From the IMG/VR virus record IMGVR_UViG_3300024261_000108, positions 1-31,163 of that record: a DNA stretch of 31,163 nt; one strand, written 5' to 3'. Both the position numbers and the translations under genes were made by a program. Positions 2,950-31,163 of this stretch are shown piece by piece (the stretch's first letter is position 1; each line of letters opens with the position of its first letter). This stretch comes from a virus. Below the pieces are notes generated by a model, which saw only the letters and a program-made list of their open reading frames with translations, made no database searches and was not told where the DNA came from.

Positions 2950-3165
2950 CTATTGCCACCTTGCTGGCCGTGAATCCGATGGCGGCTGTACGACGTGCGC
3001 CCTGGTTGCGGCGCTGGTTGCCTTGACGGTCACTCCACCCGCTCCATGATTGGTAAGTGTTCCGCTGGATTTGTGCGGCATCAAACCAGTAACCGCGTCT
3101 TGAAGCTGGTTAATTGCTTCCAGAATATCTTTAACATTAAACTTTGAGAGTCTTCTTAACCTCAT
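2950..3165 (-). CDS. Small hypothetical tail-region protein
   Basis: A 71-aa basic protein beginning MRLRRLSKFNVKDILEAINQLQDAV: an amphipathic helix, then a Gly/Thr/Ala-rich, probably extended tail. The start overlaps the stop of the preceding gene as ATGA, supporting translation. No family is recognised. Being wedged between a tail protein and the LamG fibre suggests a small baseplate, linker or fibre-attachment protein. It stops just before one copy of the intercistronic motif at 2931-2946. Confidence 0.55.
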   Translation of the reverse strand: MRLRRLSKFNVKDILEAINQLQDAVTGLMPHKSSGTLTNHGAGGVTVKATSAATRAHVVQPPSDSRPARWQ

Positions 3166-4025
3166 AAGTAATTTGGGTAAATTTGCGTGGGTAGTTCATC
3201 AGCGCCAATGTTTAAGAATTCGGTTGTTATCTCAAACTTGCCGTCTGTGCGTTCGTGAATTGCTGGCGCTTGCTTTAGCCATTTATCTTCCAGAAAAGTA
3301 TTGAAAACGTCTCCAATGATTGAAGACTGCGTAACCGTTGGCGGGCCGCTCAAGATAAGATCAACAACCCTGAAGGTTGACCATTGGCTCGATGTTTGAA
3401 GGTGGTCAATGGTCAGGTTCGTATTTGCTGGAACAACCTTCACATTGCGTAACGTGTATTTTGTCACGTCGTAGGTTGTATGGCCTCTGACAACCAAGCC
3501 CGCTAATTCTTCCGCCAGGGCTTCATTGGCGGCTGTAATGTTTGCGTTGTCTGCGTTCTTGTAAACAATGTATTCATCCAAATCAAAAACTAAATCCTTG
3601 TCTGAGTCACCCGCTGAAATGCCGGTTGCAACCTTGGATTTGTATGATTCAACAGCCAGTAAGATCCGTTGAAGGAATCCGTTTTCGTTTTCGATGTCGG
3701 CCAGTCCAACATAGTTTGGATGCTCCTCAATGTTGCGCTGGATTGTGTAGGGTTGAAACGTCCAAGTGTTGGAGTCCTCGGTGTTTTGATCTGGCTCGCT
3801 ACTGTCAGTGTTTGAAAAGGTAACCTTGAGCGTGCCAAGATTCTTGTCCTGTGTCGCCTGGATGTTTGAGGCGTAGTCTGTGTAAAGAGTGTTTGTCTTG
3901 GCTGCGTCAATTAAAGACCACTCCCCCAAATACGTATAAACCGAAGACCATCCGCGCTCCCTTGTCCAATTACGTTCCAAGGATTGAAGCTGGATTGCTG
4001 TGCTGCCTTTCCATGTAGCGGTCAT
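3162..4025 (-). CDS. Hypothetical tail structural protein
   Basis: This 287-aa acidic protein has no membrane span or signal, with frequent Tyr/Trp and Asn/Asp as in beta-rich tail-tip proteins. It follows the tape-measure gene with ATGA overlap and precedes the small protein and LamG fibre, where distal-tail/tail-hub proteins usually lie. No recognisable catalytic motif was found. Distal tail or tip role is inferred from position only. Confidence 0.6.
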   Translation of the reverse strand: MTATWKGSTAIQLQSLERNWTRERGWSSVYTYLGEWSLIDAAKTNTLYTDYASNIQATQDKNLGTLKVTFSNTDSSEPDQNTEDSNTWTFQPYTIQRNIEEHPNYVGLADIENENGFLQRILLAVESYKSKVATGISAGDSDKDLVFDLDEYIVYKNADNANITAANEALAEELAGLVVRGHTTYDVTKYTLRNVKVVPANTNLTIDHLQTSSQWSTFRVVDLILSGPPTVTQSSIIGDVFNTFLEDKWLKQAPAIHERTDGKFEITTEFLNIGADELPTQIYPNYL

Positions 4026-7833: not shown

Positions 7834-8721
7834 TTATGCGCTTAAAATTCGTTTTAGTGCGGTGGCGTTACCTACGGAAACACCGTAAAGCAACCCCATT
7901 GAAGTTTTGTATTGTCCCAAGTCTCGTTCATACCATGAACGGAATTGAATTGGTAATCCTGTCTTTGGTTCCACTGCGTTGATTACTTGAACGCGCGGAC
8001 TTAAAGGGTTTGCAACTTGCCGGGCCGCTATCAATAACGCGGAAGGATGGCAAACAAAGCCCATCAGGTTTTCTGAGTTGGTTGGAATGTCCTGGTATTC
8101 GTTTATGCCAAATCCATGAATGAAGCCCGCGCTGTGGTCCCGAATTGCTTCTGGTGTGCCATATGCAGCGGCGTCTTGAATTGCAGCATCCTTCTGAAGA
8201 CTCGCGTTGTAGGTCGGTGGCAATAGGGCAGACCGGACCGACTTTGGAACCTTGGCTGTTGATAGTGCGCCCGCCATGTCTGCGAGGTCGTCACTGTCGA
8301 AATTTGCGGCGGTAATGACTGAATTGGCTGAAAAGTTGGCGTTGGTTACAAGTGCAAGCAAATCATCCATCACCGTTTTGACGGTGGCCTCAACCGCTGG
8401 CTCTACAAATACGCGTTGCAACCAGCCTTCGTTACCAGCCTTGGAAACTTCCAAGTCAGTGAAACCGTGGACGTGGCCTTTGAAATTTGAAAGAGTGATG
8501 GCCTTTGCTGTGCTTGTTACATCTTGCACATCGTAGCCATCACTCAAATCCTGCGTTGTTACACTTGACGGCACGCGAGTTGTGACCGATTGCCCTTCTT
8601 GGTTTATTTCCGTCGAGAAGTCGCGCACAAATGCGGACAAATGAAAGAAATTGCTACCAAGGTAATCAAGGGTTTGTTCGGCAATCGCTGCAAGATTTAC
8701 GCCGCCAAGTGTATTTGCCAT
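7834..8721 (-). CDS. Major capsid protein paralogue 2
   Basis: This 295-aa protein is a close paralogue of the gene at 8725-9618. My hand alignment counts about 196 identities over 297 columns (66%), one 2-residue gap, and identity in blocks such as VTTRVPSS, TTQDLSDGYDV, GFTDLEVSKAGN and DIPTNSENL. The fold pattern (N-terminal helix, E-loop-like basic stretch, long spine helix around VMDDLLALV) fits an HK97-fold coat protein of the P22-coat-like group. It is intact, starts 3 nt after the first copy and has no Shine-Dalgarno site of its own. Divergence is spread along the length, so it is an old, maintained duplicate. Confidence 0.75.
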   Translation of the reverse strand: MANTLGGVNLAAIAEQTLDYLGSNFFHLSAFVRDFSTEINQEGQSVTTRVPSSVTTQDLSDGYDVQDVTSTAKAITLSNFKGHVHGFTDLEVSKAGNEGWLQRVFVEPAVEATVKTVMDDLLALVTNANFSANSVITAANFDSDDLADMAGALSTAKVPKSVRSALLPPTYNASLQKDAAIQDAAAYGTPEAIRDHSAGFIHGFGINEYQDIPTNSENLMGFVCHPSALLIAARQVANPLSPRVQVINAVEPKTGLPIQFRSWYERDLGQYKTSMGLLYGVSVGNATALKRILSA

Positions 8722-8724
8722 AAT

Positions 8725-9618
8725 TTAAGCAGATGTGATGCGCTTCAGCGCGGTTGTGTTACCAGCGGCAACACCGTAAAGCGTGCCAATGGAAACCTTG
8801 TAAGACCCCAAGTCTGGATCATACCATGCGCGGAACTGCAAAGGTAATCCGGTTGTTGGGTCAGTCACGTTTTCAACTTGCAAACCTGGGTCGGCTGGTG
8901 TTGCTGGTTGCCGCGCGGCCAACAGTAAAGCTGACGGATGCAGGGCAATTGCCGCAAGGTTTTCTGAGTTGGTTGGAATGTCGCTGTATTCAAACGCATT
9001 GAATCCATGTATCCGGCGAACGGCGTGATCTCTGACCGCATCCGCTGAACCGTAGCTTGATGCGTCTTGAACAATCGTATCCTTTTGAATACTCGCGTAA
9101 TAAGTTGGAGGCAGAAGCAAAGCGCGTTCGCTCTTTGGAACCTTCACCGTTGACAAGTCTGCGGCTAAATCTGCCACTTCATCAACGTCAAAGTTTGCGG
9201 CGGTAATGACTTCGGCGGTTGGTGAGTTGTAAGTTGCAGCAACAACCAAAGCCAATAGGTCGTCCATGACAACATTCAAAACCGACTCAAGCGCGGGCGC
9301 AATGAATACGCTTTGCAACCAGTCAACATTACCAGCCTTGGAAACTTCCAAGTCAGTGAAACCCATCACATGGCCCTTGAATTTATCAAGTGTAATAGTC
9401 TTCGCTGTGCTGGTCATGTCCGTTACGTCATAACCATCAGACAAGTCCTGAGTCGTCGTGCTTGACGGCACGCGAGTTGTTACAGACGTTCCCTTTTGGG
9501 CGATGTCTGTTGAGAAGTCGCGCACAAATGCGCGAAGCGGATGAAACTCATAGCTTAAATAATCCAATGTGTCATTGGCGATTTGAGCTAGATTAATTCC
9601 GTTCAGGGTATTAGCCAT
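8725..9618 (-). CDS. Major capsid protein paralogue 1
   Basis: This 297-aa HK97-fold-type coat protein candidate begins MANTLNGINLAQIANDTLDY, with VTTRVPSSTTTQDLSDGYDV (about 46-65), a GFTDLEVSKAGN block and VMDDLLALV spine helix. It follows the protease and coiled-coil scaffold, the canonical place for the major capsid gene, and starts 4 nt after the scaffold stop. The 66% identical copy directly downstream means that two coat-like subunits may enter the shell. No frameshift or truncation is seen in either copy. Which copy builds most of the shell cannot be told from sequence. Confidence 0.8.
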   Translation of the reverse strand: MANTLNGINLAQIANDTLDYLSYEFHPLRAFVRDFSTDIAQKGTSVTTRVPSSTTTQDLSDGYDVTDMTSTAKTITLDKFKGHVMGFTDLEVSKAGNVDWLQSVFIAPALESVLNVVMDDLLALVVAATYNSPTAEVITAANFDVDEVADLAADLSTVKVPKSERALLLPPTYYASIQKDTIVQDASSYGSADAVRDHAVRRIHGFNAFEYSDIPTNSENLAAIALHPSALLLAARQPATPADPGLQVENVTDPTTGLPLQFRAWYDPDLGSYKVSIGTLYGVAAGNTTALKRITSA

Positions 9619-14834: not shown

Positions 14835-15461
14835 CTATAACAAGACTTCTTGAGCCATTCTTGTTGCTGCGGCTTTGCAATAATCTTCATCCTTTTCTAT
14901 CAAAACAGCCTTTTTGTTTAAATCTTTGGCCGCTCTGCCAGTTGTGCCACTTCCCGCAAACGGATCCAAGATTGTATCAGATTGATTTGCAATGTTTATA
15001 CACCATTTAAAAACCTCCAATGGTTTTTGCGTTGGATGCAATTTTCCTTTGTAGTCGCCCTTAGCAAGTGGATCATATTGCAAAACACGAACATTGCTAT
15101 CAAGTGAAGTCCACGCGAGTTCGGCTTCGGCGTATGTTCTGCCTTTAAATCCTGCCCCTTTATCCCATACAAGCCACTGTCTTGTCGGAGGCAATCCCAT
15201 GTAATTGCCACCCCAAATAATTGATTTTTTTGCAGATAATAATAGACCTTGTAATAGTAAAGGATTAGGCGCGGATTGATCCCAATTTTTTTTCTCGAAA
15301 TTATTTTTGCCTTTGTACCCGACGTTGCCTCCGTCCATGTTAATCCCATAAGGCGGATCGGTTAACATTAAGTCAAACTTACCAAGTTGAGGGACAATTT
15401 GCCGGCAATCCCCGTGATATATGGTTACGTTGTCGTCTTGATAATATGGCTTTAAACTCAT
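14835..15461 (-). CDS. Amino-group DNA methyltransferase (N6-A / N4-C), beta class
   Basis: This 208-aa protein has catalytic motif IV TDPPYG (D35-Y38), a HPTQKPLEV motif (142-150) and the AdoMet-binding motif I DPFAGSGTTG (166-175). That IV-then-I order is the beta class. DPPY is typical of N6-adenine but N4-cytosine enzymes can share it. It is short, with a minimal target-recognition region. No restriction enzyme is near, so it is an orphan that probably shields phage DNA or tunes packaging and expression. Its ATG overlaps the stop of the small HTH frame (ATGA). Confidence 0.85.
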   Translation of the reverse strand: MSLKPYYQDDNVTIYHGDCRQIVPQLGKFDLMLTDPPYGINMDGGNVGYKGKNNFEKKNWDQSAPNPLLLQGLLLSAKKSIIWGGNYMGLPPTRQWLVWDKGAGFKGRTYAEAELAWTSLDSNVRVLQYDPLAKGDYKGKLHPTQKPLEVFKWCINIANQSDTILDPFAGSGTTGRAAKDLNKKAVLIEKDEDYCKAAATRMAQEVLL

Positions 15462-15589
15462 AACAGCTTCCCATGTTGAATTCTAAGTCCGAATTGTTTC
15501 GCCAAATCCTTCATGTTCTTGTGCATTGTCATTCGTGAAACATTAAATTTCAAACATGCCTCCTTGATCGTTGCTTTCTTACTGATCAC
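15458..15589 (-). CDS. Small HTH protein, second copy, start unclear
   Basis: The open frame runs from 15637 to the TGA at 15458, which overlaps the methyltransferase ATG (ATGA). The protein (from a GTG at 15589: 43 aa) ends KDLAKQFGLRIQHGKLL. With upstream residues AALYVISKKATIKEACLKF it aligns along about 50 residues (18 identities) with the C-terminal half of the adjacent 15612-15899 product. It has no ATG in the homologous region; CTG 15595 or GTG 15589 would trim the first helix. It may be a reinitiated gene, a frameshifted extension of the neighbour, or a decayed duplicate. Confidence 0.45.
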   Translation of the reverse strand: MISKKATIKEACLKFNVSRMTMHKNMKDLAKQFGLRIQHGKLL

Positions 15590-15917: not shown

Positions 15918-16079
15918 TTAAGTGGCTCTTGCTTGTTTGCGTTCAGCCCACCGGGGAGCGTCCATCTCTTGCTTGCACAGCTTGCAATATGCTTGCAGAC
16001 CGTCATTGGCTCCGCTTCTTTTATGGAAGGCATTAGTTGGTTTAGTGATGCCACAGCCTCCGCATGTTTTGAATCTCAT
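15918..16079 (-). CDS. 53-aa zinc-knuckle protein
   Basis: A short gene easily missed: the ATG at 16079 overlaps the DUF3310 stop as ATGA and the frame closes at TAA 15918. The product has two CxxC pairs (C6/C9 in TCGGCG, C32/C35 in YCKLCK) separated by FHKRSGANDGLQ. This CxxC-F-DGLQ-CxxC arrangement is common in small phage zinc proteins and at the N-terminus of some HNH nucleases, but no HNH residues follow. It is probably a nucleic-acid or protein-binding zinc ribbon. Confidence 0.7.
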   Translation of the reverse strand: MRFKTCGGCGITKPTNAFHKRSGANDGLQAYCKLCKQEMDAPRWAERKQARAT

Positions 16080-16303
16080 GCTTTCCCTTCCTTTGATTCT
16101 GGGTATTCCAACTCAATCAGTAGCTCCAAGAAGTGGATTGCTTTCTGTATGTCCTCGGAGCCGTTCTTGGTTCTGTGCCTGGTCAGATACTTAATCACGC
16201 AGCCCTCTATGAACGGTATCTTGTTGGCGGTGATGTATTCCACTGGCTGGATTTTTAGGCGTTTGTAATGGTCACCGCCTGTTTGCTGACCTAGTGCGCT
16301 CAT
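16076..16303 (-). CDS. DUF3310-family protein
   Basis: This 75-aa protein has the DUF3310 signature: GGDHYKRLKIQPVEYITANK, then FIEGCVIKYLTRHRTKNGSEDIQKAIHFLELLIE. This family is widespread in phages, is sometimes annotated as a nucleotide kinase without proof, and usually sits in replication/nucleotide modules, as here. Both ends overlap neighbours by ATGA, so it is tightly coupled to the exported beta-helix gene upstream and the zinc-knuckle gene downstream. Confidence 0.85.
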   Translation of the reverse strand: MSALGQQTGGDHYKRLKIQPVEYITANKIPFIEGCVIKYLTRHRTKNGSEDIQKAIHFLELLIELEYPESKEGKA

Positions 16304-17442: not shown

Positions 17443-17871
17443 TTAAAAAGGAACGTCGTCGTCATCGGTTGGTTGAGCTTGAGCGTTGCGGCTTGCATCT
17501 GGTGGCGGTGGGGCTTGCTGTTGTTGCTCGTCTTTATCAGGCCAATCAATGGGTTGTATTTGCAAAACCTTCACCTTGGTTTTTGACCGTTTTTTGCCAG
17601 TCTCTTTGTCGGTCCATTCCTCTTGATTTAACTCGCCTTGCACATTGGCTCGTTTCCCTTTCCGAAGCCACTTGCTTGCAAATTCGGCAGTTGGCCCAAA
17701 TACGGTGCAACCTATAAATGAGGCTTTTTCTTTGTATTCGCCTGAGCTGTCCTTGTATTTGCGTTCACTGACAATTGTGATTTCTGCAATGGCCAAACCT
17801 CCTGGCGTGTGTCGCAATTCTGGATCTCTGGCCAAACGTCCGCTGATTATTACCGTGTTAATGTCACTCAT
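17443..17871 (-). CDS. ssb: Single-stranded DNA-binding protein
   Basis: This 142-aa protein has an OB-fold over residues 1-105 (INTVIISGRLARDPELRHTPGG, AEITIVSERKY, FIGCTVFGPTAEFASKWLRKG, VQGELNQEEW). A Gln/Pro-rich linker follows and the acidic tail ends DDDDVPF, the tip that docks host replication proteins. The start at 17871 overlaps the upstream stop as ATGA. It coats ssDNA during phage replication and recombination, together with the RecT-like annealase encoded upstream. Confidence 0.93.
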   Translation of the reverse strand: MSDINTVIISGRLARDPELRHTPGGLAIAEITIVSERKYKDSSGEYKEKASFIGCTVFGPTAEFASKWLRKGKRANVQGELNQEEWTDKETGKKRSKTKVKVLQIQPIDWPDKDEQQQQAPPPPDASRNAQAQPTDDDDVPF

Positions 17872-18164
17872 GATTCTTGTATTTCTTCCCAAATGGTTCT
17901 AATTTTCTTTAAAAATATAGGGTCTGTTTCGGCTTGGTCGGTGATTGCCCGGTGCGCGTAGCCCACGGTTTGGTGACATCTCTTCCCGAAATTCCGAGCC
18001 ACTTCGCTTAAACTGAAACCTTCCTCAACTGCGAACGCCATCGCGGTCATTCTCGGTATAGCTATTGCTGGCCGCTTGGTCCTCTTCAGCATTGCCCTAG
18101 AGGTTAAACCAAACCCTTGCGCGGTCTTGTCGATGATTTCAGTGATTCGTTTGTTGTGGCTCAT
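17868..18164 (-). CDS. Stand-alone DnaA domain IV-like protein
   Basis: This 98-aa protein corresponds to the DNA-binding domain IV of DnaA alone: RPAIAIPRMTAMAFAVEEGFSLSEVARNFGKRCHQTVGYAHRAI, including the helix-turn-helix and the H-x-TV-x-x-A signature. The AAA+ ATPase part is absent by design, since both ends overlap neighbours by ATGA. It should bind DnaA-box-like sites, perhaps in the phage origin or to compete with host DnaA. It lies between the C5 methyltransferase and SSB. Confidence 0.8.
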   Translation of the reverse strand: MSHNKRITEIIDKTAQGFGLTSRAMLKRTKRPAIAIPRMTAMAFAVEEGFSLSEVARNFGKRCHQTVGYAHRAITDQAETDPIFLKKIRTIWEEIQES

Positions 18165-18901
18165 ATCAATCCCTCTGAAAGAATTTTGAATGCTGTTGCC
18201 GCCACTGCTGGAACTTGCCCGTTTCCAATGGTTCTAGTCCTGTCCACATAATTGGCCACCCCATTGTGTGCTCTGCAAAGTTGGGGTGAAGGTACAGAGG
18301 ATCTTCCCTGCAAATCCTTAATCCCTCTGACATCTTGCTCCCACGGAATTCCGGACTCCCGACAAACCGGGCCCTGCATGCTCCTATGTACTCCGATGCC
18401 ACGACTGTTGGTAGCCAACAACCAGAACCGGGCCCGCCTATGCCAAGCTCCGATGTCTCCAGCTCCCAACACTCCCCATCGAGCATGCATCCCCATTTTG
18501 GCCACGTCTGCGAGAACGGTTCCCAATCCTCGAAAAAGGATCGCTGGTGAGTTCTCCACGAATGCAAGTCGCGGTTTAACTTCGCAAATGATTCTGGCCA
18601 TTTCTTTCCAGAGTCCTGACCGGGCCCCTTCAATTCCATTTCCATTGGCGTTGGCAACACTGATGTCTTGGCAAGGGAATCCTCCGGCAACGATGTCAAC
18701 TTTTCCTCGCCATGGTCGGCCATCGAATGATTTGATGTCTCCGAAAATTGGGAAGTCGGGCAAGATTCCGTCTTGTTGTCTGGCTTTGAGGACTTGTTGG
18801 CAGTAAGGCTCGATTTCAACGGCACAGACTGTTTTATGTCCAAGGAGCATTCCTCCAAGGATTCCGCCGCCTGCCCCTGCAAATAAGTGTAATTCTCGCA
18901 T
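18161..18901 (-). CDS. DNA cytosine-5 methyltransferase (orphan)
   Basis: The start at 18901 has GAAGGATGAC directly before the ATG, preferred over a frame extending to 18985. The 246-aa enzyme has motif I FAGAGGGILGG (7-17), the catalytic Cys77 in GGFPCQDIS, a motif VI variant FVENS (114-118; ENV is usual), motif VIII RRARFWLLA (155-163), a very short target-recognition region, and motif X-like IGNGQVPA. It methylates cytosine at C5 in an unknown short site. No nuclease partner is nearby, so protection from host restriction is the likely job. Confidence 0.9.
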   Translation of the reverse strand: MRELHLFAGAGGGILGGMLLGHKTVCAVEIEPYCQQVLKARQQDGILPDFPIFGDIKSFDGRPWRGKVDIVAGGFPCQDISVANANGNGIEGARSGLWKEMARIICEVKPRLAFVENSPAILFRGLGTVLADVAKMGMHARWGVLGAGDIGAWHRRARFWLLATNSRGIGVHRSMQGPVCRESGIPWEQDVRGIKDLQGRSSVPSPQLCRAHNGVANYVDRTRTIGNGQVPAVAATAFKILSEGLI

Positions 18902-18902
18902 G

Positions 18903-19130
18903 TCATCCTTCACCTTCCTGTGAGTAGCTCCATCCCATTTCATCCCGTAGGTTTTCAAATTTGTCTGCCACTTTGGAAAATCCAATTTTCCGAATCAACC
19001 CAACGACGATGGCATCTGCTTGCGCATGGGCAATATCTGGGTGGCTGTTTAATTTACCCAATGCCATAAGGGCATGCGCTGATTCAAATCTGGCTTTCTC
19101 CCATTTATTTGCATTCTCAAGAGGGTTCAT
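18903..19130 (-). CDS. Small hypothetical helical protein
   Basis: This 75-aa protein (MNPLENANKWEKARFESAHALMALGK, later AIVVGLIRKIGFSKVADKFENL) is predicted all-helical, without cysteine or membrane span. Its ATG overlaps the upstream stop by ATGA and the C5 methyltransferase starts right after its stop, so it is part of the same translationally coupled series. No family recognised. Confidence 0.55.
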   Translation of the reverse strand: MNPLENANKWEKARFESAHALMALGKLNSHPDIAHAQADAIVVGLIRKIGFSKVADKFENLRDEMGWSYSQEGEG

Positions 19131-19390
19131 TTGGTATAAATGTTGAAGGGTAAGGGTTCATTGTTTTTCCGCTTTTCAACCGCTTCATTTTTTTTATCCA
19201 TGAGCCTGTGGTAATTTTCGTTAATTTGCGCTGTGCGTTTTTTCCTTTGATTTGCAATATCTGTCTCAGAATCTAAAATGTAAGGGCTTTCCCACGCCTC
19301 CCACGTGGTTCGATTCGGCAGGTTTTTGGAACTCAAGAACTGAGCCTGGATAATTGCAGAATCTCTGAAATATGTTTTTTGGTTTTTCAT
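19127..19390 (-). CDS. Small hypothetical charged protein
   Basis: This 87-aa protein (MKNQKTYFRDSAIIQAQFLSS) is rich in Lys/Glu/Asn with a helical central part (DIANQRKKRTAQINENYHRLMDKK). The start at 19390 overlaps the upstream stop as ATGA and is preferred to a longer in-frame start at 19414. Position downstream of the initiator suggests an accessory replication factor, but no motif supports this. Confidence 0.5.
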   Translation of the reverse strand: MKNQKTYFRDSAIIQAQFLSSKNLPNRTTWEAWESPYILDSETDIANQRKKRTAQINENYHRLMDKKNEAVEKRKNNEPLPFNIYTK

Positions 19391-22646: not shown

Positions 22647-23317
22647 GCTGGTTGCCTTTCTTTTGTTCCTGCGTCAATCCATGTAATCATTCTGTCAGCA
22701 ATTTGTTTTGTAAGTTCAAGATCCTGCGTCAAATAAGCTTTTGCGCGTTCTGGCTCAGTTTTAAACCACTCGGCGAAGTCTGCGCCGCTTCCAGATTTCC
22801 CTGGCAACCCAACGAATTTTGCAAGTGAGTTTAAATTAATTGTTTGCTCTCGATTGCCGCACTGCCAAAGGTTCATGATGTCAATGAAACGTGGGTCGAA
22901 ATATCGTGAATTGCTCAACTGAAGCCCCGGCGTTACACCGTGAAAGAGTGACCGGCGCATGAGAAACGGAAGGTCAAAATTGAAAATATTAAAACCAATC
23001 CAGCGCTTGCTTCGATACTCGGAAACCATATCCCAAAATTGAGAAAGTAACTCGCATTCTGTAAACTGATTTCTGTCTAAAATTATCGTTTCAGATTCGC
23101 CTTCAACCGATTTGGAAAGACCAATCGCTAAAACTTCCCCCGTTCTTGCATCCAGTGCGGCGCGGTCAAACCACTTGGATTCCTGTTCCGCAATCTTAGC
23201 CTTAATCTTTTCATCGTCTTTCCAATTGCTTGGCGCCTCAAAAGTGGGCATGACGTGCACAAGCTGTTCAATCGGTAGTGGTCCCGTTTCGATGTCAAAA
23301 ATGTATCCATTTATCAT
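22643..23317 (-). CDS. DEDD-family 3'-5' exonuclease
   Basis: This 224-aa protein has an RNase H-like exonuclease core: motif I FDIETG (D8, E10), motif II WIGFNIFNFDLPFLMRR (D115), and motif III with YLTQDLELTKQIADR (D199). It resembles the PolB-like 3'-5' exonuclease family (PF10108 type) found next to phage annealases. ATGA overlap on both sides binds it to the RecT-like gene and the coiled-coil gene. It probably trims ends during recombination-dependent replication. Confidence 0.85.
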   Translation of the reverse strand: MINGYIFDIETGPLPIEQLVHVMPTFEAPSNWKDDEKIKAKIAEQESKWFDRAALDARTGEVLAIGLSKSVEGESETIILDRNQFTECELLSQFWDMVSEYRSKRWIGFNIFNFDLPFLMRRSLFHGVTPGLQLSNSRYFDPRFIDIMNLWQCGNREQTINLNSLAKFVGLPGKSGSGADFAEWFKTEPERAKAYLTQDLELTKQIADRMITWIDAGTKERQPA

Positions 23318-24279
23318 TTCGCACCTTTCGTAACCGTTTTAATCAGTGCGTCAGGATTGGCCAGAATGCCTTTTGCATATTTGCTTTTCAGATTGTGCAA
23401 AGTTTCTTTTGATGTAATCCACCCTTGATCAACCGCATATTTTCGAACGCCGTCCAAGTGGCCTTCAAACACATCAAACACCTGTGAGATTAAAGCGTCT
23501 GGTTGTTGCTCAGATTTTGATTGTTCCGCCTCAATGATTTGATTGTCATGCTTTGGCGTTAAAACGTGTTGTTTTGATGGTGCAAAATCTGTGTCCGAAT
23601 CATTATCAGGTTTTGCGCTTGGGAGCATCGTCGGTGAAATGTCAATCGAACGTGGAATGTCAATCGAACGTGGAATGTCTTGGTTTTCATCTTGCGAATA
23701 AAGCCCACCGTTTACAGACGGAAAAGCAGACCGTAAGGCATCCGCTTCCGCACATTTTACCGCCATCATTTCACGGTTCTTTTTCCACATGCTTCGGCCT
23801 GTGTCATACTTTTCTATATTTAAGCGTCGATATGTTGGGATTTTACGATCGCTTCGGTGAACTCTTGCCCATGCTCCAATTGCCTGACATCCTGGTTCAA
23901 GGAAATCGCCTTCTGTTTCCTTTTGGTTTCCGTCCTGATCAATGATGATCAGACCGGACTCCATTCCATCGAATTGTGGGCATGCTTCAGAGCGTTTTAA
24001 AAATGCTTGTTGCCCAGTGATCAAACTGAAGGATGCTCCCGCTTGGCCGTCATATCCAACAAGGAAGGCATCTCCCTCAAACGGGTTTAATTTGCGAGCG
24101 CGGCAGAGCATAAGGAAGTCCATCATGTCGCGCTTTGTTGGCATTTTTCCTGATCGTGTAGGATTTGCGATTTGCCGCTCGATGATCCCTAATGACAGTT
24201 TGATTGGATCAGTGTTGCCCAATGGCGTAAAAGTGCACTCTGAAGGGTCGCTCTTGACGATTTGTGAATTTTGAGACAT
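23314..24279 (-). CDS. RecT/Redbeta-like ssDNA annealing protein
   Basis: This 321-aa protein has an annealase core at about 25-200: LGIIERQIANPTRSGKMPTKRDMMDFLMLCRARKLNPFEGDAFLVGYDG, then ASFSLITGQQAFLKR, GAWARVHRSDRK and KKNREMMAVKCAEADALRSAFP. All are hallmarks of Bet/RecT family proteins. The C-terminal third is acidic and variable and contains a tandem DIPRSI repeat. The ATG at 24279 follows CAGGAATTCAAT. It anneals complementary ssDNA and works with SSB and the exonuclease encoded downstream. Confidence 0.88.
   Translation of the reverse strand: MSQNSQIVKSDPSECTFTPLGNTDPIKLSLGIIERQIANPTRSGKMPTKRDMMDFLMLCRARKLNPFEGDAFLVGYDGQAGASFSLITGQQAFLKRSEACPQFDGMESGLIIIDQDGNQKETEGDFLEPGCQAIGAWARVHRSDRKIPTYRRLNIEKYDTGRSMWKKNREMMAVKCAEADALRSAFPSVNGGLYSQDENQDIPRSIDIPRSIDISPTMLPSAKPDNDSDTDFAPSKQHVLTPKHDNQIIEAEQSKSEQQPDALISQVFDVFEGHLDGVRKYAVDQGWITSKETLHNLKSKYAKGILANPDALIKTVTKGAK
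23639..23674. repeat. 18-bp tandem duplication in annealase gene
   Basis: Two identical 18-bp units (23639-23656 and 23657-23674) lie in the linker of the RecT-like gene and encode a repeated six-residue DIPRSI. Perfect identity suggests a recent slippage event in a region under weak constraint. Confidence 0.75.
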
Positions 24280-24781: not shown

Positions 24782-25015
24782 TCATAATTGACGGGTTGTT
24801 GTTTTGGTTTTCGTTGGTCCTGATTCCCCATCAGGCGAAATTGTTCCTTCGGCTTGACACGCTTCGCAGTGCTGGTAGTTACTTGCAAAGCTCATTGCTG
24901 CGAGACAGGCAAAGCAAGCAATGAAAAATACCCAAGGCATAAAAGCGGCCAGCCACGTTGAGGCGATTTGAAGCGTAAGAATTCCGGTAAGAATTAGGAG
25001 GATTAGAGGTTTCAT
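24782..25015 (-). CDS. Small membrane protein
   Basis: This 77-aa protein begins MKPLILLILTGILTLQIAS and has two adjacent hydrophobic segments (about 3-22 and 26-46, WVFFIACFACLAAMSF). A soluble tail with CEACQAEG and a Thr/Lys-rich end follows. It is probably an inner-membrane hairpin protein with the tail in the cytoplasm. Its position just downstream of the regulatory genes, among first-expressed leftward genes, is typical for superinfection-exclusion or host take-over proteins, but this is only positional. Confidence 0.55.
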   Translation of the reverse strand: MKPLILLILTGILTLQIASTWLAAFMPWVFFIACFACLAAMSFASNYQHCEACQAEGTISPDGESGPTKTKTTTRQL

Positions 25016-25023
25016 GGCTGGCT

Positions 25024-25209
25024 TTAAATTTGTGGTTGCGGTTTATTTGTTTTGGCTTCAAGTGACCGGATGACTTTTTCTTGGTCGAAGCGCCAGTGGC
25101 CCCTGGGCGTCTTGAACCCTGGAATCATTTTTTCTTTGGCATACGTCCACATTGTACGGTTACAGACGCCAATGATTTTCGCCATTTCTGGAAGCGAAAC
25201 ATATTTCAT
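25024..25209 (-). CDS. Excisionase-like (HTH_17/MerR-type) protein
   Basis: This 61-aa protein has one winged-helix of the excisionase family: MKYVSLPEMAKIIGVCNRT, then TYAKEKMIPGFKTPRGHWRFDQEKVIRSL, with the turn and GHWRF wing typical of Xis/HTH_17 proteins. The ATG at 25209 overlaps the stop of the 47-codon RHH gene (ATGA), so the two are co-translated. It lies about 600 bp from the integrase end. It may direct excision, or act as a Cro-like regulator. Confidence 0.65.
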   Translation of the reverse strand: MKYVSLPEMAKIIGVCNRTMWTYAKEKMIPGFKTPRGHWRFDQEKVIRSLEAKTNKPQPQI

Positions 25210-25349
25210 GTTTCCAAGTCCTCTAAGATTAGCGACCGGATGTGTCCTGAAAGCGAACGATTCGCTTTCTTGGCTTTCGCTTTTGCTTTCTTCCAAACAG
25301 GAAGCGGCATTGAAAAGCTCGTGATTAAATGCTGTTTTTTATTTTTCAT
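25206..25349 (-). CDS. 47-aa ribbon-helix-helix repressor (leftward)
   Basis: A short gene easily missed: ATG 25349 to TGA 25206, the stop overlapping the excisionase-like ATG. The product is a minimal Arc/CopG fold: beta strand LITSFSMP, helix A LPVWKKAKAKAKKANRS, helix B SLSGHIRSLILEDLE, with the G/S-x-S turn between the helices. It is the first gene leftward from the divergent control region, starting 6 nt beyond operator O1. No strong Shine-Dalgarno site. This is the position of cro in a lambda-like switch. Confidence 0.75.
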   Translation of the reverse strand: MKNKKQHLITSFSMPLPVWKKAKAKAKKANRSLSGHIRSLILEDLET

Positions 25350-25355
25350 TCAAGA

Positions 25356-25370
25356 TGCTAAAAGTTAGCA
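25356..25370. promoter_or_regulatory. Operator O1, perfect palindrome
   Basis: TGCTAAAAGTTAGCA: 6-bp arms TGCTAA / TTAGCA around a 3-bp centre. It is identical to O2, 67 bp away. It lies 6 nt upstream of the leftward RHH start codon, within the presumed early part of that transcript. Short palindromes of this form suit RHH dimers or dimer pairs. Confidence 0.75.
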
Positions 25371-25386
25371 AGTGCGATGAAGCAAA

Positions 25387-25414
25387 CATTTACAGAAACA
25401 GGTTTTGCGGTCAA
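25387..25414 (-). promoter_or_regulatory. Candidate leftward early promoter
   Basis: On the minus strand TTGACC (25414-25409) is followed after 16 nt by TAAATG (25392-25387). The -35 is good, the -10 mediocre. The predicted start near 25380 puts O1 at about +10 to +25 and O2 just upstream of the -35, a plausible layout for repression. Confidence 0.4.
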
Positions 25415-25422
25415 CACTTTTA

Positions 25423-25437
25423 TGCTAAAAGTTAGCA
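25423..25437. promoter_or_regulatory. Operator O2, perfect palindrome
   Basis: A second exact copy of TGCTAAAAGTTAGCA, centred 67 bp from O1. It is followed by an A-rich tract (25438-25460), favourable for DNA bending or a rightward promoter. It lies between the divergent RHH genes and could serve both. Confidence 0.75.
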
Positions 25438-25468
25438 AATAAAAAAAAATAATAAAAATTAACTAGAA

Positions 25469-25488
25469 GTGACCCTTTATTGGGTTAC
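25469..25488. promoter_or_regulatory. Dyad in the rightward leader region
   Basis: GTGACCC / GGGTTAC, a 7-bp dyad (one G.T pair) with a 6-bp centre, located 30 bp upstream of the rightward RHH start. It is a different sequence from O1/O2, so a second regulator could bind, or it may form an RNA hairpin. A -10-like TATTAT sits at 25497-25502 but no good -35 precedes it. Confidence 0.4.
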
Positions 25489-25517
25489 TTTACGCCTATT
25501 ATGTGTAGGAAGTAATT

Positions 25518-25724
25518 ATGCTAACTACTAGGAAGACAAAATTGACCGAAGTGAAAAACAAATACCATGTGGCCAGTATTTCATGGCCGGACAAAGAAAC
25601 CAAAAACGCAGCAAAAGTTAGGGCGAAAAGATTGGGTTTGAGTTTTTCAAATTACATTAACCAACTTGTCATGAAGGATCTGGGAAAAGGCGGCAGGTTT
25701 GAAATTAAACCAACCGAAGAATGA
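25518..25724 (+). CDS. Ribbon-helix-helix regulator (rightward), candidate lysogeny repressor
   Basis: This 68-aa protein has a basic arm (TTRKTKLTEVKNK), RHH strand YHVASISWP, helix A DKETKNAAKVRAKRLGLS and helix B SFSNYINQLVMKDL, then a short tail. AGGAAGTAATT before the ATG is a strong ribosome site. It is one of only three plus-strand genes and faces the leftward RHH gene across the operators. By position it should keep leftward early genes off in the lysogen. No HTH-type CI-like protein is present in the window. Confidence 0.75.
   Translation: MLTTRKTKLTEVKNKYHVASISWPDKETKNAAKVRAKRLGLSFSNYINQLVMKDLGKGGRFEIKPTEE
25519..25533. promoter_or_regulatory. Operator-like half site O3 at RHH start codon
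   Basis: TGCTAACTACTAGGA matches O1/O2 at 10 of 15 positions with one intact TGCTAA arm. It overlaps the start codon of the rightward RHH gene, which would allow autoregulation. The match is partly coding (Met-Leu-Thr), so chance is not excluded. Confidence 0.4.
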
Positions 25725-25804
25725 GCGCACCCACGAAAGGACAAGTTGCAATTACCAACCTTCTGTTGCTTTTAATTTTGCTCGTTTTACTAGCTAAAGC
25801 TTAG
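25721..25804 (+). CDS. 27-aa single-span membrane micropeptide
   Basis: A short gene easily missed: its ATG overlaps the RHH stop (ATGA at 25721-25724) and it ends at TAG 25802. The product has a short polar N-terminus (MSAPTKGQVAITN) followed by a 14-residue run of only Leu, Ile, Val and Ala, LLLLLILLVLLAKA-like, a minimal transmembrane helix. Coupling to the repressor-position gene implies expression in the lysogen. Candidate roles are superinfection exclusion or a membrane toxin; neither is shown. It ends 9 nt from the convergent integrase stop. Confidence 0.7.
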   Translation: MSAPTKGQVAITNLLLLLILLVLLAKA

Positions 25805-25813
25805 GCTTGCTGA

Positions 25814-26890
25814 TCATAGCATCAACCATTCTTCGGTTTCATTCTTGCTGATCATCTGCCGGTAATGCTTCAACATGATCGCTCCTGAGTGGCCAAGCTG
25901 CTTGGTTGCCTCATCCATTCCGTAAATATTGTAAAAGTGGCTGGCGGCTGTGTGCCTTAAAACATCGCTGGGCCATTTCTTAATATTAGCGTGTTTTTTA
26001 ATTGCGGCGCGGCGCCTCCTGAAATTAATAGAAAACTTCAAACCTTTGTGCTTCTCGAATATTTTAACCGCTGGCGGAAGCATGGCAACAATGCGGCGGT
26101 TGCGCGTTTTTGAGGCGTCACCGCTCACCACAACTTGACCGCGCTCCAGGTCAACCGAATTACCTGTCAACCTCATGCACTCATCTGGCCGGATGCCGCA
26201 GAATAACGCCAGGGCAAAGTAAGTGAGCATGTCAGGGTCAATTTCTGAAGCGGAATCAATCAACTGCTTGCATTGCTCCACGTTTAAAATTTGCGGGTCT
26301 GCCTGGTCAATTCTAATGGATTCAAGCCGTTTCGTAGGGTTTTCGGCAATCAATCCTTGCCGCTCGGCCCACGAGAAAAACACCTTGAGTCGTGTCTGCA
26401 TCGTGTGACGTGTGGCCGCGCTCCCGTCAAAGCTGGTAATCCATGAACGGAGTTCGCCGGTGCCTACGCTGCCAATTTGCCGTTTTTCCCGGCCTTGAGC
26501 GAATCTTGCAAGGGTTCTTGTCATTTCTTCTGTGTAACGTGACCGCCTTCCAGCCTCTTTCTTCAGCTCCATGAAATCGGCAATGGCATCTTCCAGCGTG
26601 GATTTTCCATGGGAGAGGTGCGTTTTCTGGTAGGATTCCCAAACTTCAGCCAAATTCATGCCGTGATCCTTGATTTCGTCCAATATCTCAAGAATGCTCC
26701 ACTTTTTACGTGCTTCGAGTTCATCCCATTGATTTCCTAGCAACTCACGCTTCTTTTTGTAGGTTTTTAAAACCGCGTTGGCTGTGGTTTTAGTGTCAAC
26801 AAAGCGCCGCCGCCGCTTTCCCGCCACCCTCCCAAGGTCAATTTCCTGTTTTTTCCTGCCATGTATAACCACTGCGCGTATCTTTGCCAT
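25814..26890 (-). CDS. int: Tyrosine recombinase, phage integrase
   Basis: This 358-aa protein has an N-terminal basic arm-binding region (1-55), a core-binding SAM-like domain (about 95-180) and a catalytic domain with R234 (GIRPDE), K261 (SKTRNRR), R312 (DVLRHTAASH), H334 (LGHSG) and the nucleophile Y343 (LKHYRQ). The HxxR histidine is replaced by D309, a substitution tolerated in some integrase subfamilies. The gene starts 15 bp from the first attP arm repeat and reads away from attP. Confidence 0.95.
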   Translation of the reverse strand: MAKIRAVVIHGRKKQEIDLGRVAGKRRRRFVDTKTTANAVLKTYKKKRELLGNQWDELEARKKWSILEILDEIKDHGMNLAEVWESYQKTHLSHGKSTLEDAIADFMELKKEAGRRSRYTEEMTRTLARFAQGREKRQIGSVGTGELRSWITSFDGSAATRHTMQTRLKVFFSWAERQGLIAENPTKRLESIRIDQADPQILNVEQCKQLIDSASEIDPDMLTYFALALFCGIRPDECMRLTGNSVDLERGQVVVSGDASKTRNRRIVAMLPPAVKIFEKHKGLKFSINFRRRRAAIKKHANIKKWPSDVLRHTAASHFYNIYGMDEATKQLGHSGAIMLKHYRQMISKNETEEWLML

Positions 26891-27043: not shown

Positions 27044-27093
27044 TGGTGCGCGATACTGGGTTCGAACCAGTGACCCCCACAGTGTCAGTGTGT
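27044..27093 (-). other. tRNA-Val(GAC) 3' half, att core (not a functional tRNA)
   Basis: On the minus strand the sequence runs from the anticodon stem through the loop CTGACAC (anticodon GAC, 27086-27084), variable loop, T-arm ACTGG-TTCGAAC-CCAGT, acceptor strand ATCGCGC, discriminator A and encoded CCA. The 5' acceptor strand and D-arm are missing: no GCGCGAT lies at the right distance. Such 3' halves let an integrating phage restore the tRNA gene it enters. Crossover in the anticodon loop would fit the boundary. Confidence 0.8.
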
Positions 27094-27147
27094 GTTGCAT
27101 ATGCTGTAAGTGATGGTATGCAATACCTTGCAAATGGTCTTTCTTGA

Positions 27148-27166
27148 CGGTGGCAACTCGTTGGCA
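27148..27166. promoter_or_regulatory. attP arm-type sites, right pair
   Basis: CGGTGGCA (27148-27155) and CGTTGGCA (27159-27166), again 11 bp start to start and in the same orientation as the left pair. The block TGGCA-CTCGTTGGCA is shared by both sides. Confidence 0.6.
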
Positions 27167-27178
27167 TATTTTATCTTA

Positions 27179-28267
27179 ATGCGTTCGCTGCGCCCACGAG
27201 TGAATCCTCGAAAAACAAGAACCGCTAGCCCTTTTCAGAAAAGCCTTTATGTGTCCGCTATGTTTAACAAGGCTAATGGTTACGGTGAGTTGTCGCGGCA
27301 ATTCTGTGTTCATGCGGCAAAGCGTGTTGATTTAGGGATTTTGCCGCATGGTGATTATGCGGCTCAGTTACGTGATTTAGGACTGGCGCACGCCCTTGGT
27401 TCAAATCCAGTCAAACCCAATTCCCTTTTTTCAATTCAGCCTACATTTTCACTAATGCAAGCAGGATGGGGAAACCGCAACGGGATTTTAACAATGTTTG
27501 AAACGTCAAAACTTAACTCTGCATGGTGTCGGGCAATAAATTCTTTTGATGTTCTTATTACCCCAAGCCATGCAAACGCGGTTGATTTTGCAGAACAATT
27601 AAGGATTCCAGTTGAAGTCTGCAATCTTGGCCATGATGAAAACCTGTTCAACCTTCAACCATACAACCAAAGCGGGCCTTTTGTTTTCGGTGCGGCGGCT
27701 CATGTTGGGCATGGAAGGACGCGCAAGGGAATTGAGCGAATCATTGACTGGTTTGAATCTGCATTCCCAAATGAAAAGAATGTGCGACTTTCTTTGAAGT
27801 TAAATGAATTTCCTGAAAACGGAATCATACCAAAGGATTCAAGAATCTCAATTATTGAAAACGACGTTACAGACCTTGAGTGCAAAGAATGGTTAACATC
27901 ACTCCATTGCTATATTGACGGCTCGACCTTTGAAGGGTGGGGCATGTGGAATCATCACTCAATGGCAACAGGTCGCCCCGTAATTGGGACAAATTACAGC
28001 GCCCGCTGTGAGTATTTCAAATTTGGTAATCACATCCCCATTGGATACAGAGTTGTTGAGGCGTCTGATCAATATAAAGGCTTGGGTCATTGGGCAATGC
28101 CTGACCGGTCAGACGCAATTGAAGCTATGCGGTGGGCTTTCAATAATCCTGACAAGTGTGAAATTATTGGATTAACGGCTTATAATTCCATCAAATATCT
28201 GACTTGGGAGCGGTTTACGAATCGGGTTTTATTCCTGCTTCGCAAACATCAAATCGCTTCATATTGA
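27179..28267 (+). CDS. GT4-family glycosyltransferase
   Basis: This 362-aa GT-B protein has an N-terminal acceptor domain with KSLYVSAMFNKANGYGELSRQF and TMFETSKL, a hinge with VCNLGHDENLFNLQP, and a donor-binding domain with FGAAAHVGHGRTRKGIERII, then SLHCYIDGSTFEGWGMWNHHSMATGRPVIGT, the E-x7-E-like region of GT4 enzymes. The start at 27179 keeps the first beta strand; ATG 27260 is the alternative. It stands alone on the plus strand beside attP, a usual place for lysogenic-conversion genes. Its end overlaps the convergent GT2 gene by 53 nt. Confidence 0.8.
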   Translation: MRSLRPRVNPRKTRTASPFQKSLYVSAMFNKANGYGELSRQFCVHAAKRVDLGILPHGDYAAQLRDLGLAHALGSNPVKPNSLFSIQPTFSLMQAGWGNRNGILTMFETSKLNSAWCRAINSFDVLITPSHANAVDFAEQLRIPVEVCNLGHDENLFNLQPYNQSGPFVFGAAAHVGHGRTRKGIERIIDWFESAFPNEKNVRLSLKLNEFPENGIIPKDSRISIIENDVTDLECKEWLTSLHCYIDGSTFEGWGMWNHHSMATGRPVIGTNYSARCEYFKFGNHIPIGYRVVEASDQYKGLGHWAMPDRSDAIEAMRWAFNNPDKCEIIGLTAYNSIKYLTWERFTNRVLFLLRKHQIASY

Positions 28268-28928
28268 AAGGTACATTAAAAATCTCATCTCCTGGCTGTC
28301 CGCCCCACTTTTGGATGTATCGGCAATGATTTGAAACCTGACCCGACTTAATGCAAGCGATTAACTCACGAGAAGACTTATTGTCTTTCATTACGGATTC
28401 AGTGAGCGGCGTGTCAATTACTTGGCGCTTAGGCGTCTTCCAACCAACGCCCGCCAACTTCATTCGATGGTAATAATCAACGTCCTCGTAATAGGCAGGA
28501 TAAAAAGCCTCATCAAACAAACCTATCAATTCCTTTGCAACCGCTGGATGCGTCCCAAAGAACGCGAAATTTTCATTCTGACCGGAAAATATTGGATGTA
28601 ATGGATGTTCATCCATAACGGTAAGCATAGATTCAATGCCGGTTGGCAAGAGCATTTGGTCGTCGTTAGAAATAAACACTTGGCTGTTGTTCAATTCCAG
28701 CCCTAAATTCCAACTTGCAGCAACCCCTAGATTGTTGGCAGTCACCACTTCAAGTTGCTCGAATTTAAACCGCTTCAAACGGTGTTGATTCAAGCGTCCG
28801 CCTGAGTTGTCCACGACAACAACACGTCCAGGTTTAACGGTCTGATTTGATACACAAAACAAAAAACGGTCAAGCAGGTCAAACCTGTTTATTGTTGTGA
28901 CAATTAAGGCTGTTGAATTATTTACCAT
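28215..28928 (-). CDS. GT2-like glycosyltransferase (GT-A fold)
   Basis: This 237-aa protein shows the GT-A pattern: ALIVTTINRFDLLDRFL at the N-terminus, VVVDNSGG (nucleotide site), NNLGVAASWNLGLE, the DxD-like SNDDQML near 88, and FYPAYYEDVDYYHRM (ED acceptor motif) near 142. It should transfer a sugar from a nucleotide donor. It follows the zinc-ribbon and FN3 genes with a 7-nt overlap, so it is in the late/tail transcript, unlike the plus-strand glycosyltransferase. Virion protein or host envelope glycosylation are both possible. Confidence 0.8.
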   Translation of the reverse strand: MVNNSTALIVTTINRFDLLDRFLFCVSNQTVKPGRVVVVDNSGGRLNQHRLKRFKFEQLEVVTANNLGVAASWNLGLELNNSQVFISNDDQMLLPTGIESMLTVMDEHPLHPIFSGQNENFAFFGTHPAVAKELIGLFDEAFYPAYYEDVDYYHRMKLAGVGWKTPKRQVIDTPLTESVMKDNKSSRELIACIKSGQVSNHCRYIQKWGGQPGDEIFNVPFNMKRFDVCEAGIKPDS

Positions 28929-29698: not shown

Positions 29699-31163
29699 TT
29701 AAACGAGCGGCACTTTTACGTATGCTTCAATATTTTCAACGGTCAGGTTTCTTTCAGTGTTTGCGCCTTCACCAAAACTACCTTGGACTGTGTCAATATA
29801 ATCGCTTACACTTGGCAAATTTGCGGTCAACATTCCTGACCTTGCAATTTCGCATGTTGTTCCAGGCGTGTTTAAGGACTCCCAGAATTGATATTGACCG
29901 AAATCGTCTTGATAATCCACTTCGGCACCATTCGCGCCAACGCCGCCAGCGCCCCAACCGTTTCCGGCTGTTTCAACAATTCGATTGTGAGTGTTGTCTT
30001 GCGTATCAACGGCAACCGCATATCCAACCGACTCATCATTGACAACCAGCGTGTGTAAGTCTGTTGGAAGCGCGTTGCTGGAAAGTTGTGAGAGTTCAAT
30101 TATATATTCGGTGTCACGCCTATCATTTACAATAATACAATTGCCAGAACCATCATCATCAATCTTTGTTCTTTGGTAGGAAAGAATCGTCAAATATCCA
30201 CCAGACGGTATTACCTCAGACCATGCGCTTGGGTTTGGTGAGACGGAAGGGTCAAGGGTTGTCGCCGCCGGTGCGCTTTGATCTTCAGCCCATACCGCAC
30301 CGTTAACGCAATTCCCATCGCCATACACGGCAACCGGACCTTGACCTGTGTAGTCGTACGTCCGCTCTTTTAATACAACCGGCAAATATAATCTCGCCCT
30401 CGTTAATAAATTAACCGCCCTTGCAATCTGGTTGAAATGTTCCGCATAAGTAAAAACCATTGGAAGCGGGCCAAACATTTTCGGGTTGTCGCTTCTCTCG
30501 CTCAACGGAACCAAGCGCGGCCAGCGGTTATTATTTGCCACACTAAATAGGTTTTCGTATGTATAATCAAACAGGCGTTTTGTGTAACAATCATCCTTTT
30601 GGGATATAGCGTTAAAATAAGATCTGAGTTGGTTTGTGTTCACCTGGTCAACGTAACCTTCACAAATCGCCCTCAAGACTAAATCCAACCAAGTCAACTC
30701 ATCTGTTACCAAACGCGTGTCATGTGATTCGTAAATATTGTTTGAGTCCTCATACACTTTTTGAACAAGCCGCGTAAAATAAAAGCGCGGAAGGCATGAC
30801 CCTTCCATGAATCCGGTCCAATCGGCGCCGCCTGTGTTCGGTGCATCTGGCGCCGTATCTCCAACCCTGGCGGTGCAATGTGTGCCGCTTCCTTGATCCC
30901 AGCGCAAGTATTCGACAACCGCGTTCTCATCGCTTCTGGCGCCTGTCTCGGTTCCAATGTAAGTATCCCAGCCCGCGCTGGAATTCGTCACGCTTGCCGG
31001 TGCGGTTGAGTTCGCACGTAATCGACCTGTCAGTGTGACCTTCACCTCTCCGGTGCCTGTAATTATTACTGACTCGATTTGATAATCGGGAACGTAAACT
31101 TGGCAGGATTCGTAATGATTAACCACACCAGCGCAATCAACCTCATTGTCAGGCGTGCCATCA
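29699..31163 (-). CDS. Large virion structural protein, 5' end outside window
   Basis: The frame stays open to the right edge (488 codons visible), so the start is outside. A GTG at 31126 is an internal possibility but the frame continues upstream as DGTPDNEVDCAG. The visible part is acidic, rich in Thr/Asn/Tyr/Trp and beta-prone, with no membrane span or enzyme motif. It resembles large phage tail or virion proteins that carry many carbohydrate-like loops. The neighbouring FN3 gene supports a tail-tip or fibre role. Confidence 0.65.
   Translation of the reverse strand, partial: DGTPDNEVDCAGVVNHYESCQVYVPDYQIESVIITGTGEVKVTLTGRLRANSTAPASVTNSSAGWDTYIGTETGARSDENAVVEYLRWDQGSGTHCTARVGDTAPDAPNTGGADWTGFMEGSCLPRFYFTRLVQKVYEDSNNIYESHDTRLVTDELTWLDLVLRAICEGYVDQVNTNQLRSYFNAISQKDDCYTKRLFDYTYENLFSVANNNRWPRLVPLSERSDNPKMFGPLPMVFTYAEHFNQIARAVNLLTRARLYLPVVLKERTYDYTGQGPVAVYGDGNCVNGAVWAEDQSAPAATTLDPSVSPNPSAWSEVIPSGGYLTILSYQRTKIDDDGSGNCIIVNDRRDTEYIIELSQLSSNALPTDLHTLVVNDESVGYAVAVDTQDNTHNRIVETAGNGWGAGGVGANGAEVDYQDDFGQYQFWESLNTPGTTCEIARSGMLTANLPSVSDYIDTVQGSFGEGANTERNLTVENIEAYVKVPLV

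Follow-up and report, generated by a model that had tools for sequence, protein, structure and literature searches.

The region between the integrase gene and the early operon of the virus in IMG/VR record IMGVR_UViG_3300024261_000108 may be its primary immunity region. Judging from sequence, we give an even chance to a reading in which RHH68, an Arc-type ribbon-helix-helix (RHH) protein, would be the lysogeny repressor and a second RHH protein, RHH47, would form with a neighboring HTH_17 gene a lytic arm of the Cro/Cox kind. Such an arrangement would put a pair of RHH genes resembling immI where the primary immunity region lies, joining known parts in a new place. It seems related to known phage switches, although a tailed phage that relies on it as its main switch would be unusual.

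Gene content of the record and evidence for a temperate phage

The window analyzed here is the whole record, 31,163 bp in length, whose two ends share no exact overlap of between 12 and 200 bp. We take its right end to be cut, since the ORF listed as 29699-31126 continues without a stop to the end of the record and matches the C-terminal part of a 1040-aa ORF in a relative, L005 (described below). Pfam names a portal protein, an S49 protease, an SSB, two DNA methylases, RecT, and an integrase, and the terminase was named through its sequence matches. The virus is probably a temperate tailed phage, and its host probably belongs to the Verrucomicrobiota, where relatives of the tyrosine integrase (25814-26890, minus strand; PF00589, E 1.5e-11) point. 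This integrase shares 72% identity with that of L005 and 68% with a Verrucomicrobiia MAG integrase, which adjoins genes that look host-like by eye, while three Akkermansia phages (23 to 26% identity) are among the nearer named phage integrases. Upstream of int lies the 3′ half of a tRNA gene (27044-27093; tRNA-Val(GAC) by eye), which is kept in L005 (at about 360-415). No complete tRNA was found with ARAGORN, so this conserved half is the probable attP, and together with the integrase and its 68%-identical counterpart beside host-like MAG genes it argues for temperate life.

Several other features of the record deserve mention in their own right. Adjacent minus-strand ORFs at 7834-8721 and 8725-9618 (295 and 297 aa) are 66% identical and represent a tandem duplication, probably of a capsid-type gene, as their position alone would suggest. 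A 246-aa, ATG-started ORF (18166-18906, minus strand) lies within the C5 cytosine methylase gene (18161-18985, minus strand) and covers most of it, on the same strand and in another frame. Between attP and the right-end genes are two glycosyltransferase-like genes (27110-28928; PHROG 2170 and PF00535), neither of which has a match in L005. The RecT annealing protein (23314-24279, minus strand; PF03837, E 5.8e-30) belongs to the same early block as the HTH_17 gene and carries in its C-terminal half a short internal repeat, DIPRSIDIPRSIDI, that is missing from L005 RecT.

The divergent gene pair, its operon, and its candidate operators

RHH68 (25518-25724, plus strand, 68 aa) and RHH47 (25206-25349, minus strand, 47 aa) diverge from a gap of 168 bp (25350-25517), exactly the strands, lengths, and spacing given in a first-pass annotation of this DNA. 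AGGAAG precedes the RHH68 start, and the RHH47 start is without a Shine-Dalgarno-like sequence. RHH68 occupies the position of a repressor: encoded on the opposite strand, it separates int from the early operon and is transcribed toward int. Between the terminase and int, no other opposite-strand ORF has homology evidence; the remaining plus-strand ORFs of at least 60 aa in the non-overlapping list for this interval (15933-16268, 18961-19146, and 25081-25368) are antisense to likely genes. RHH47 would be the first gene of the lytic operon.

The assignment of both products to the RHH family, also made by the first-pass annotation, is borne out by sequence comparison with good but not complete certainty. 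The two proteins are 35% identical over 43 aa, a score reached in none of 5,000 shuffles, as was also found for Arc against Mnt of P22 in the same test (0/5000). The single PDB sequence match of RHH68 is P22 Arc (1b28, E 0.024), and its score was reached in 2 of 5,000 shuffles against Arc and in 35 of 5,000 against Mnt. RHH47 returned no PDB sequence match and matches PHROG 6506, "Arc-like repressor" (E 0.0014); its score against Mnt was reached in 0/5000 shuffles and that against Arc in 297/5000. No Pfam model exceeds its cut-off for either protein, the RHH-type matches of the record proteins and of the L005 protein described below lying under it (E 0.012 to 0.09), and NCBIfam names neither as RHH. 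AlphaFold monomers of RHH68 and RHH47 show two helices and no strand (mean pLDDT 66.8 and 76.9). The best Foldseek PDB rows for these models are mostly Arc and other RHH proteins, with E at or below 0.001 in 0 of 77 and 0 of 81 matches; the models thus agree with an RHH fold at medium confidence and do not amount to proof. Codon usage of RHH47 (5.3 bits, against 8.7 for the antisense frame) falls within both coding and non-coding ranges. RHH47 looks like a working gene, given its above-chance likeness to RHH68 and Mnt and its ATGA coupling to the HTH_17 gene.

This HTH_17 gene (25024-25209, minus strand, 61 aa) encodes an excisionase/MerR-like protein, and its family-model support is far stronger than that of either RHH protein. 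It exceeds the cut-off of PF12728 (E 1.1e-7) and matches PHROG 66, "excisionase and transcriptional regulator," at E 5.3e-8. It overlaps RHH47 by ATGA, with AGAGGA upstream of its start. TIGR01764 (cut-off, 28.8 bits) is passed by the L005 homologue at 32.9 and not by the record protein, at 18.3. Because that homologue begins with the same MKYV, a longer, TTG-started frame from 25296 is unlikely. The first-pass annotation had held that no HTH repressor is present. In agreement with this, no Pfam match to a CI-like HTH or an S24 peptidase was found in the 48 scanned ORFs of the right-cut record, but the HTH_17 excisionase-family regulator had been overlooked. The Pfam scan reached E 1 for some ORFs and E 0.01 for others and left out terL, one capsid-type ORF, the cut right-end ORF, and some small ORFs; as other HTH-type matches it returned an above-cut-off Bac_DnaA_C at 17871-18164 and, at 15461-15589, a weak SpoIIID-like one that stays below cut-off. 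The genes that follow RHH47 are HTH_17, a 77-aa ORF, and a 127-aa ORF, among which Pfam and PHROG returned no antirepressor match. Likewise, no toxin was matched at cut-off among the neighbors of the pair (HTH_17, int, and small ORFs; Pfam and PHROG), the 77-aa ORF having a Cpta_toxin row far below cut-off (E 0.083), and no ParA-like family match occurred among the scanned neighbors. An Rfam search gave no match.

The gap contains two identical 17-bp copies of ATGCTAAAAGTTAGCAA, candidate operators at 25355-25371, 5 bp before the RHH47 start codon, and at 25422-25438, 67 bp from the first. Both contain GCTAA-AAG-TTAGC. What stands of the two identical palindromes reported earlier is the exact repeat, a length that none of 1,000 dinucleotide shuffles of the gap produced; palindromes as such are unremarkable, the best score in the gap being reached in 300 of 1,000 shuffles, and we dropped their significance by themselves. 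Weak operator-like sites overlie the first RHH68 codons (25520-25532; 2 of 10 arm bases off) and lie between RHH68 and int (25793-25805; 1 of 10 off). Throughout the record, GCTAA-N3-TTAGC with up to two mismatches occurs in 18 places against a shuffle mean of 11.15, and 2 of 100 shuffles reach 18. Excluding the two perfect copies, five weaker sites fall in 24980-25995 (reached in 1/2000 shuffles) and two in 25350-25817 (reached in 72/2000), with the bounds of both intervals set post hoc. The operator copies flank a minus-strand promoter-like match, TTGACC-16-TAAATG, that scores 8/12 against a consensus from which host promoters may differ. Several other matches score 8/12 and one elsewhere on the minus strand scores 9/12, and a stricter scan found no promoter-like site in the gap.

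In Arc, the strand residues Gln9, Asn11, and Arg13 are presumably those that contact DNA. In an alignment with Arc and Mnt, the corresponding columns hold Val, Ser, and Ser in RHH68; Ile, Ser, and Ser in RHH47; and Val, Val, and Ala in the RHH-like protein of L005. From these near-identical predicted contact residues, RHH68 and RHH47 should read similar DNA and the L005 protein different DNA. These predicted specificities would fit the operator pattern, in which GCTAA-N3-TTAGC is present in the gap of the record and missing from that of L005.

Conservation of the region in relatives

A terminase search returned 19 IMG/VR loci. Among the loci examined, only one contig, IMGVR_UViG_3300048005_000094 (loci L005, L021, L022, and L033; here called L005), shows int and early genes, in an early gene order common to both phages (integrase, 72% identity; RecT, about 60%). 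An 80-aa RHH-like protein is encoded at 1789-2031 on the minus strand of L005, between int and HTH_17 and on the opposite strand to HTH_17, in the same place and orientation as RHH68. It is 39% identical to RHH68 over 33 aa, a score that 5 and 4 of 5,000 shuffles reach. Its Pfam RHH_1 match (E 0.012) is below cut-off, searches gave no RHH-named PHROG and no RHH match in the PDB, and its NCBIfam rows are unrelated, the best being an ATP synthase subunit far below cut-off. It does not resemble RHH47 (1577 and 1593 of 5,000 shuffles) or Mnt (2894/5000) and is little like Arc (86/5000).

The first-pass annotation had named beforehand a lack of conservation of the 47-codon frame in relatives as evidence that would speak against its reading; the RHH47 frame is missing from L005, the single syntenic relative, in which the RHH-like gene faces HTH_17 directly. 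No GCTAA-N3-TTAGC site with up to two mismatches occurs in the L005 RHH/HTH_17 gap. This comparison suggests that the two phages have in common an RHH-like protein that takes the place of the repressor and faces HTH_17, with the second RHH gene and the operator sequence varying.

Wider searches produced few further relatives. None of RHH68 were found in IMG/VR, in 50,697 phage records, or in the 11 records behind the terminase loci, and the phage records likewise contained none of RHH47; a search with the L005 RHH-like protein also gave none. The HTH_17 protein matched 8 phage records (E 0.009 to 0.03). Searched alone against IMG/VR, the integrase and RecT returned no match, and with the L005 sequence added only the L005 contig. 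The integrase pair returned two loci among genome contigs, one on the Verrucomicrobiia MAG contig, which ends inside the integrase, and one in Bacteroidales, which was set aside at 24% identity. RecT was found in 0 of 384 genomes of the class at E at or below 1e-40, and the integrase in 3 of 387 Verrucomicrobiota genomes at E at or below 1e-45 (the known MAG and two distant matches), with no syntenic RHH gene seen beside those integrases on reading their neighbors. The terminase occurs at 10 places in 9 of the 387 genomes. The stretches upstream of these places (one of 14 bases and one of 2,900) were compared with the record genes by tblastn; three, parts of which were read as ORFs, belong to different elements, and the remainder gave no syntenic match. 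An alignment of the three RHH proteins, searched against the same 387 genomes, returned no more than 4 matches, all weak, at which no integrase-like neighbor or prophage setting was recognized when the ORFs were read by eye. Among the Akkermansia phages whose integrases are the nearest named ones, 2 of the 3 stretches viewed have a gene annotated "transcriptional repressor," which does not adjoin int.

An IMG/VR scan for paired TGCTAANNNTTAGCA returned a single contig, L034, which was judged unrelated on reading. In this phage contig, which appears to be unrelated, TGCTAAGNCTTAGCA palindromes recur (3026-3040, 3441-3455, 3513-3527, and 3817-3831) and are, by eye, mostly intergenic. In this they resemble mycobacteriophage stoperators.

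The proposed switch, its alternatives, and known precedents

In the lysogen, RHH68 dimers would bind the GCTAA-N3-TTAGC sites and thereby silence an early promoter, located in the gap on the minus strand, that would serve the operon running from RHH47 and HTH_17 to RecT. The weak site at the RHH68 start codon may also let RHH68 restrain its own production. RHH47 would act as a counter-repressor like Cro or Arc, recognizing the same sites if the predicted specificity is indeed shared and stopping RHH68 synthesis, so that the two proteins would compete for the same operators. The HTH_17 protein would be the excisionase and, like XisF4 in Pf4, would probably contribute to keeping the phage in the lytic state. 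A stronger version, in which two paralogous RHH proteins competing for operators make the whole lysis-lysogeny decision without a CI-type repressor and with HTH_17 wired in, we regard as possible but doubtful. Both arms had earlier been read as RHH proteins. For the repressor arm this finds support in the position of RHH68 and of the RHH-like gene of L005, but the lytic arm has in HTH_17 a second gene, which L005 keeps.

That same gene is the center of a rather unlikely alternative, in which the switch proper opposes RHH68 to HTH_17, in the manner of C/Cox or Pf4r/XisF4, with RHH47 as an additional gene that the phage can do without or is losing. The retention in L005 of an RHH-like gene against HTH_17 without RHH47, the far better backing of HTH_17 by family models, and the precedent of XisF4 are consistent with it. 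However, RHH47 resembles RHH68 and Mnt above chance and is coupled to HTH_17 through ATGA, and two identical operators are what a pair of proteins with similar specificity, such as RHH68 and RHH47, would be expected to share.

The remaining alternatives remove the pair from the decision. RHH proteins are common among antitoxins and in ParG/CopG, and the weak Foldseek rows for RHH68 and RHH47 include VapB, MazE, CopG, and ParG. Yet no toxin or ParA-like match appeared among the scanned neighbors, and the pair faces the early operon beside int, so we consider it very unlikely that the two RHH proteins are DNA-binding remnants of the antitoxin or partition type, with no part in regulating lysogeny. 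Immunity genes normally adjoin int and the early operon, and both of these usual neighbors are complete in the record. This argues against an accessory module like P22 immI, with the true repressor in the missing part or diverged past recognition, as do the lack of an antirepressor-like match after RHH47 and the RHH-like gene that L005 keeps in the same position. The cut right end of the record speaks for such a module, as does immI itself, which has the same divergent RHH layout as a secondary region (PMC11016777); on balance, we find this reading unlikely.

Returning to the preferred reading, in which RHH68 is the repressor and RHH47 and HTH_17 form the lytic arm, we compared the region with known switches. 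Lambda-type CI/Cro switches set a divergent repressor and counter-repressor of the HTH fold at shared, repeated operators; unlike lambda, the record has no S24-type cleavable repressor match in its scanned ORFs. In the P22 annotation, mnt and arc of immI diverge over 90 bp, with both operators between them and ant after arc. (The P22 record names the Mnt product "partition protein ATPase," against its own note, "maintenance of lysogeny.") In the record, too, a pair of genes assigned to the RHH family by weak but above-chance similarity diverges over a short gap, and the longer operon begins with a small RHH gene. The repeated palindrome in that gap would be the counterpart of the P22 operators. 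Unlike immI, the pair adjoins int at the head of the early operon, is followed by HTH_17 rather than ant, and spans 168 bp; moreover, no CI-type immC is seen in the record, which is incomplete. P22 immI is a secondary immunity region whose deletion lowers lysogeny (PMC11016777).

In Pf4, the repressor Pf4r is divergent from the excisionase XisF4, with mutual repression (PMC7379572). Among 182 Pf prophages, 12 have an Arc-family gene in place of pf4r, and HTH_17 occurs in the Pf excisionases (PMC7549136). As in Pf4, an HTH_17 excisionase-family gene faces a gene, here for a putative repressor, although in the record RHH47 stands between them. Pf4 differs in being a filamentous phage with Pf4r as the usual repressor, and the accessible parts of these sources describe no second small RHH gene. 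F55 of SSV1, a small RHH protein, is described as the chief viral factor that keeps the lysogenic state; it binds an 11-nt site that is present more than once, both at early promoters and at the F55 promoter (PMC9608457). Unlike the record, SSV1 is an archaeal spindle virus in which F55 is dispensable for infectivity, and no divergent excisionase arm is described in that text. YosL of SP-beta, a predicted Arc-type protein, is made on heat induction of the c2 mutant (PMC10516654). Within the open PMC literature, in such text as the sources provided and with subscription journals outside its scope, no RHH-RHH primary switch was found for a tailed phage. Nevertheless, describing the region as a new minimal switch, as had been done, overstates the case, because P22 immI already has a divergent RHH/RHH pair and switches between a repressor and an HTH_17 excisionase are known.

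If the proposed reading is true, Arc-type proteins can supply a logic like that of CI/Cro in a tailed phage whose host phylum has received little study, and annotation that seeks only HTH repressors would miss the repressor in such phages. The pair would also offer a compact system for testing the specificity of competing repressors through their beta-strand residues.
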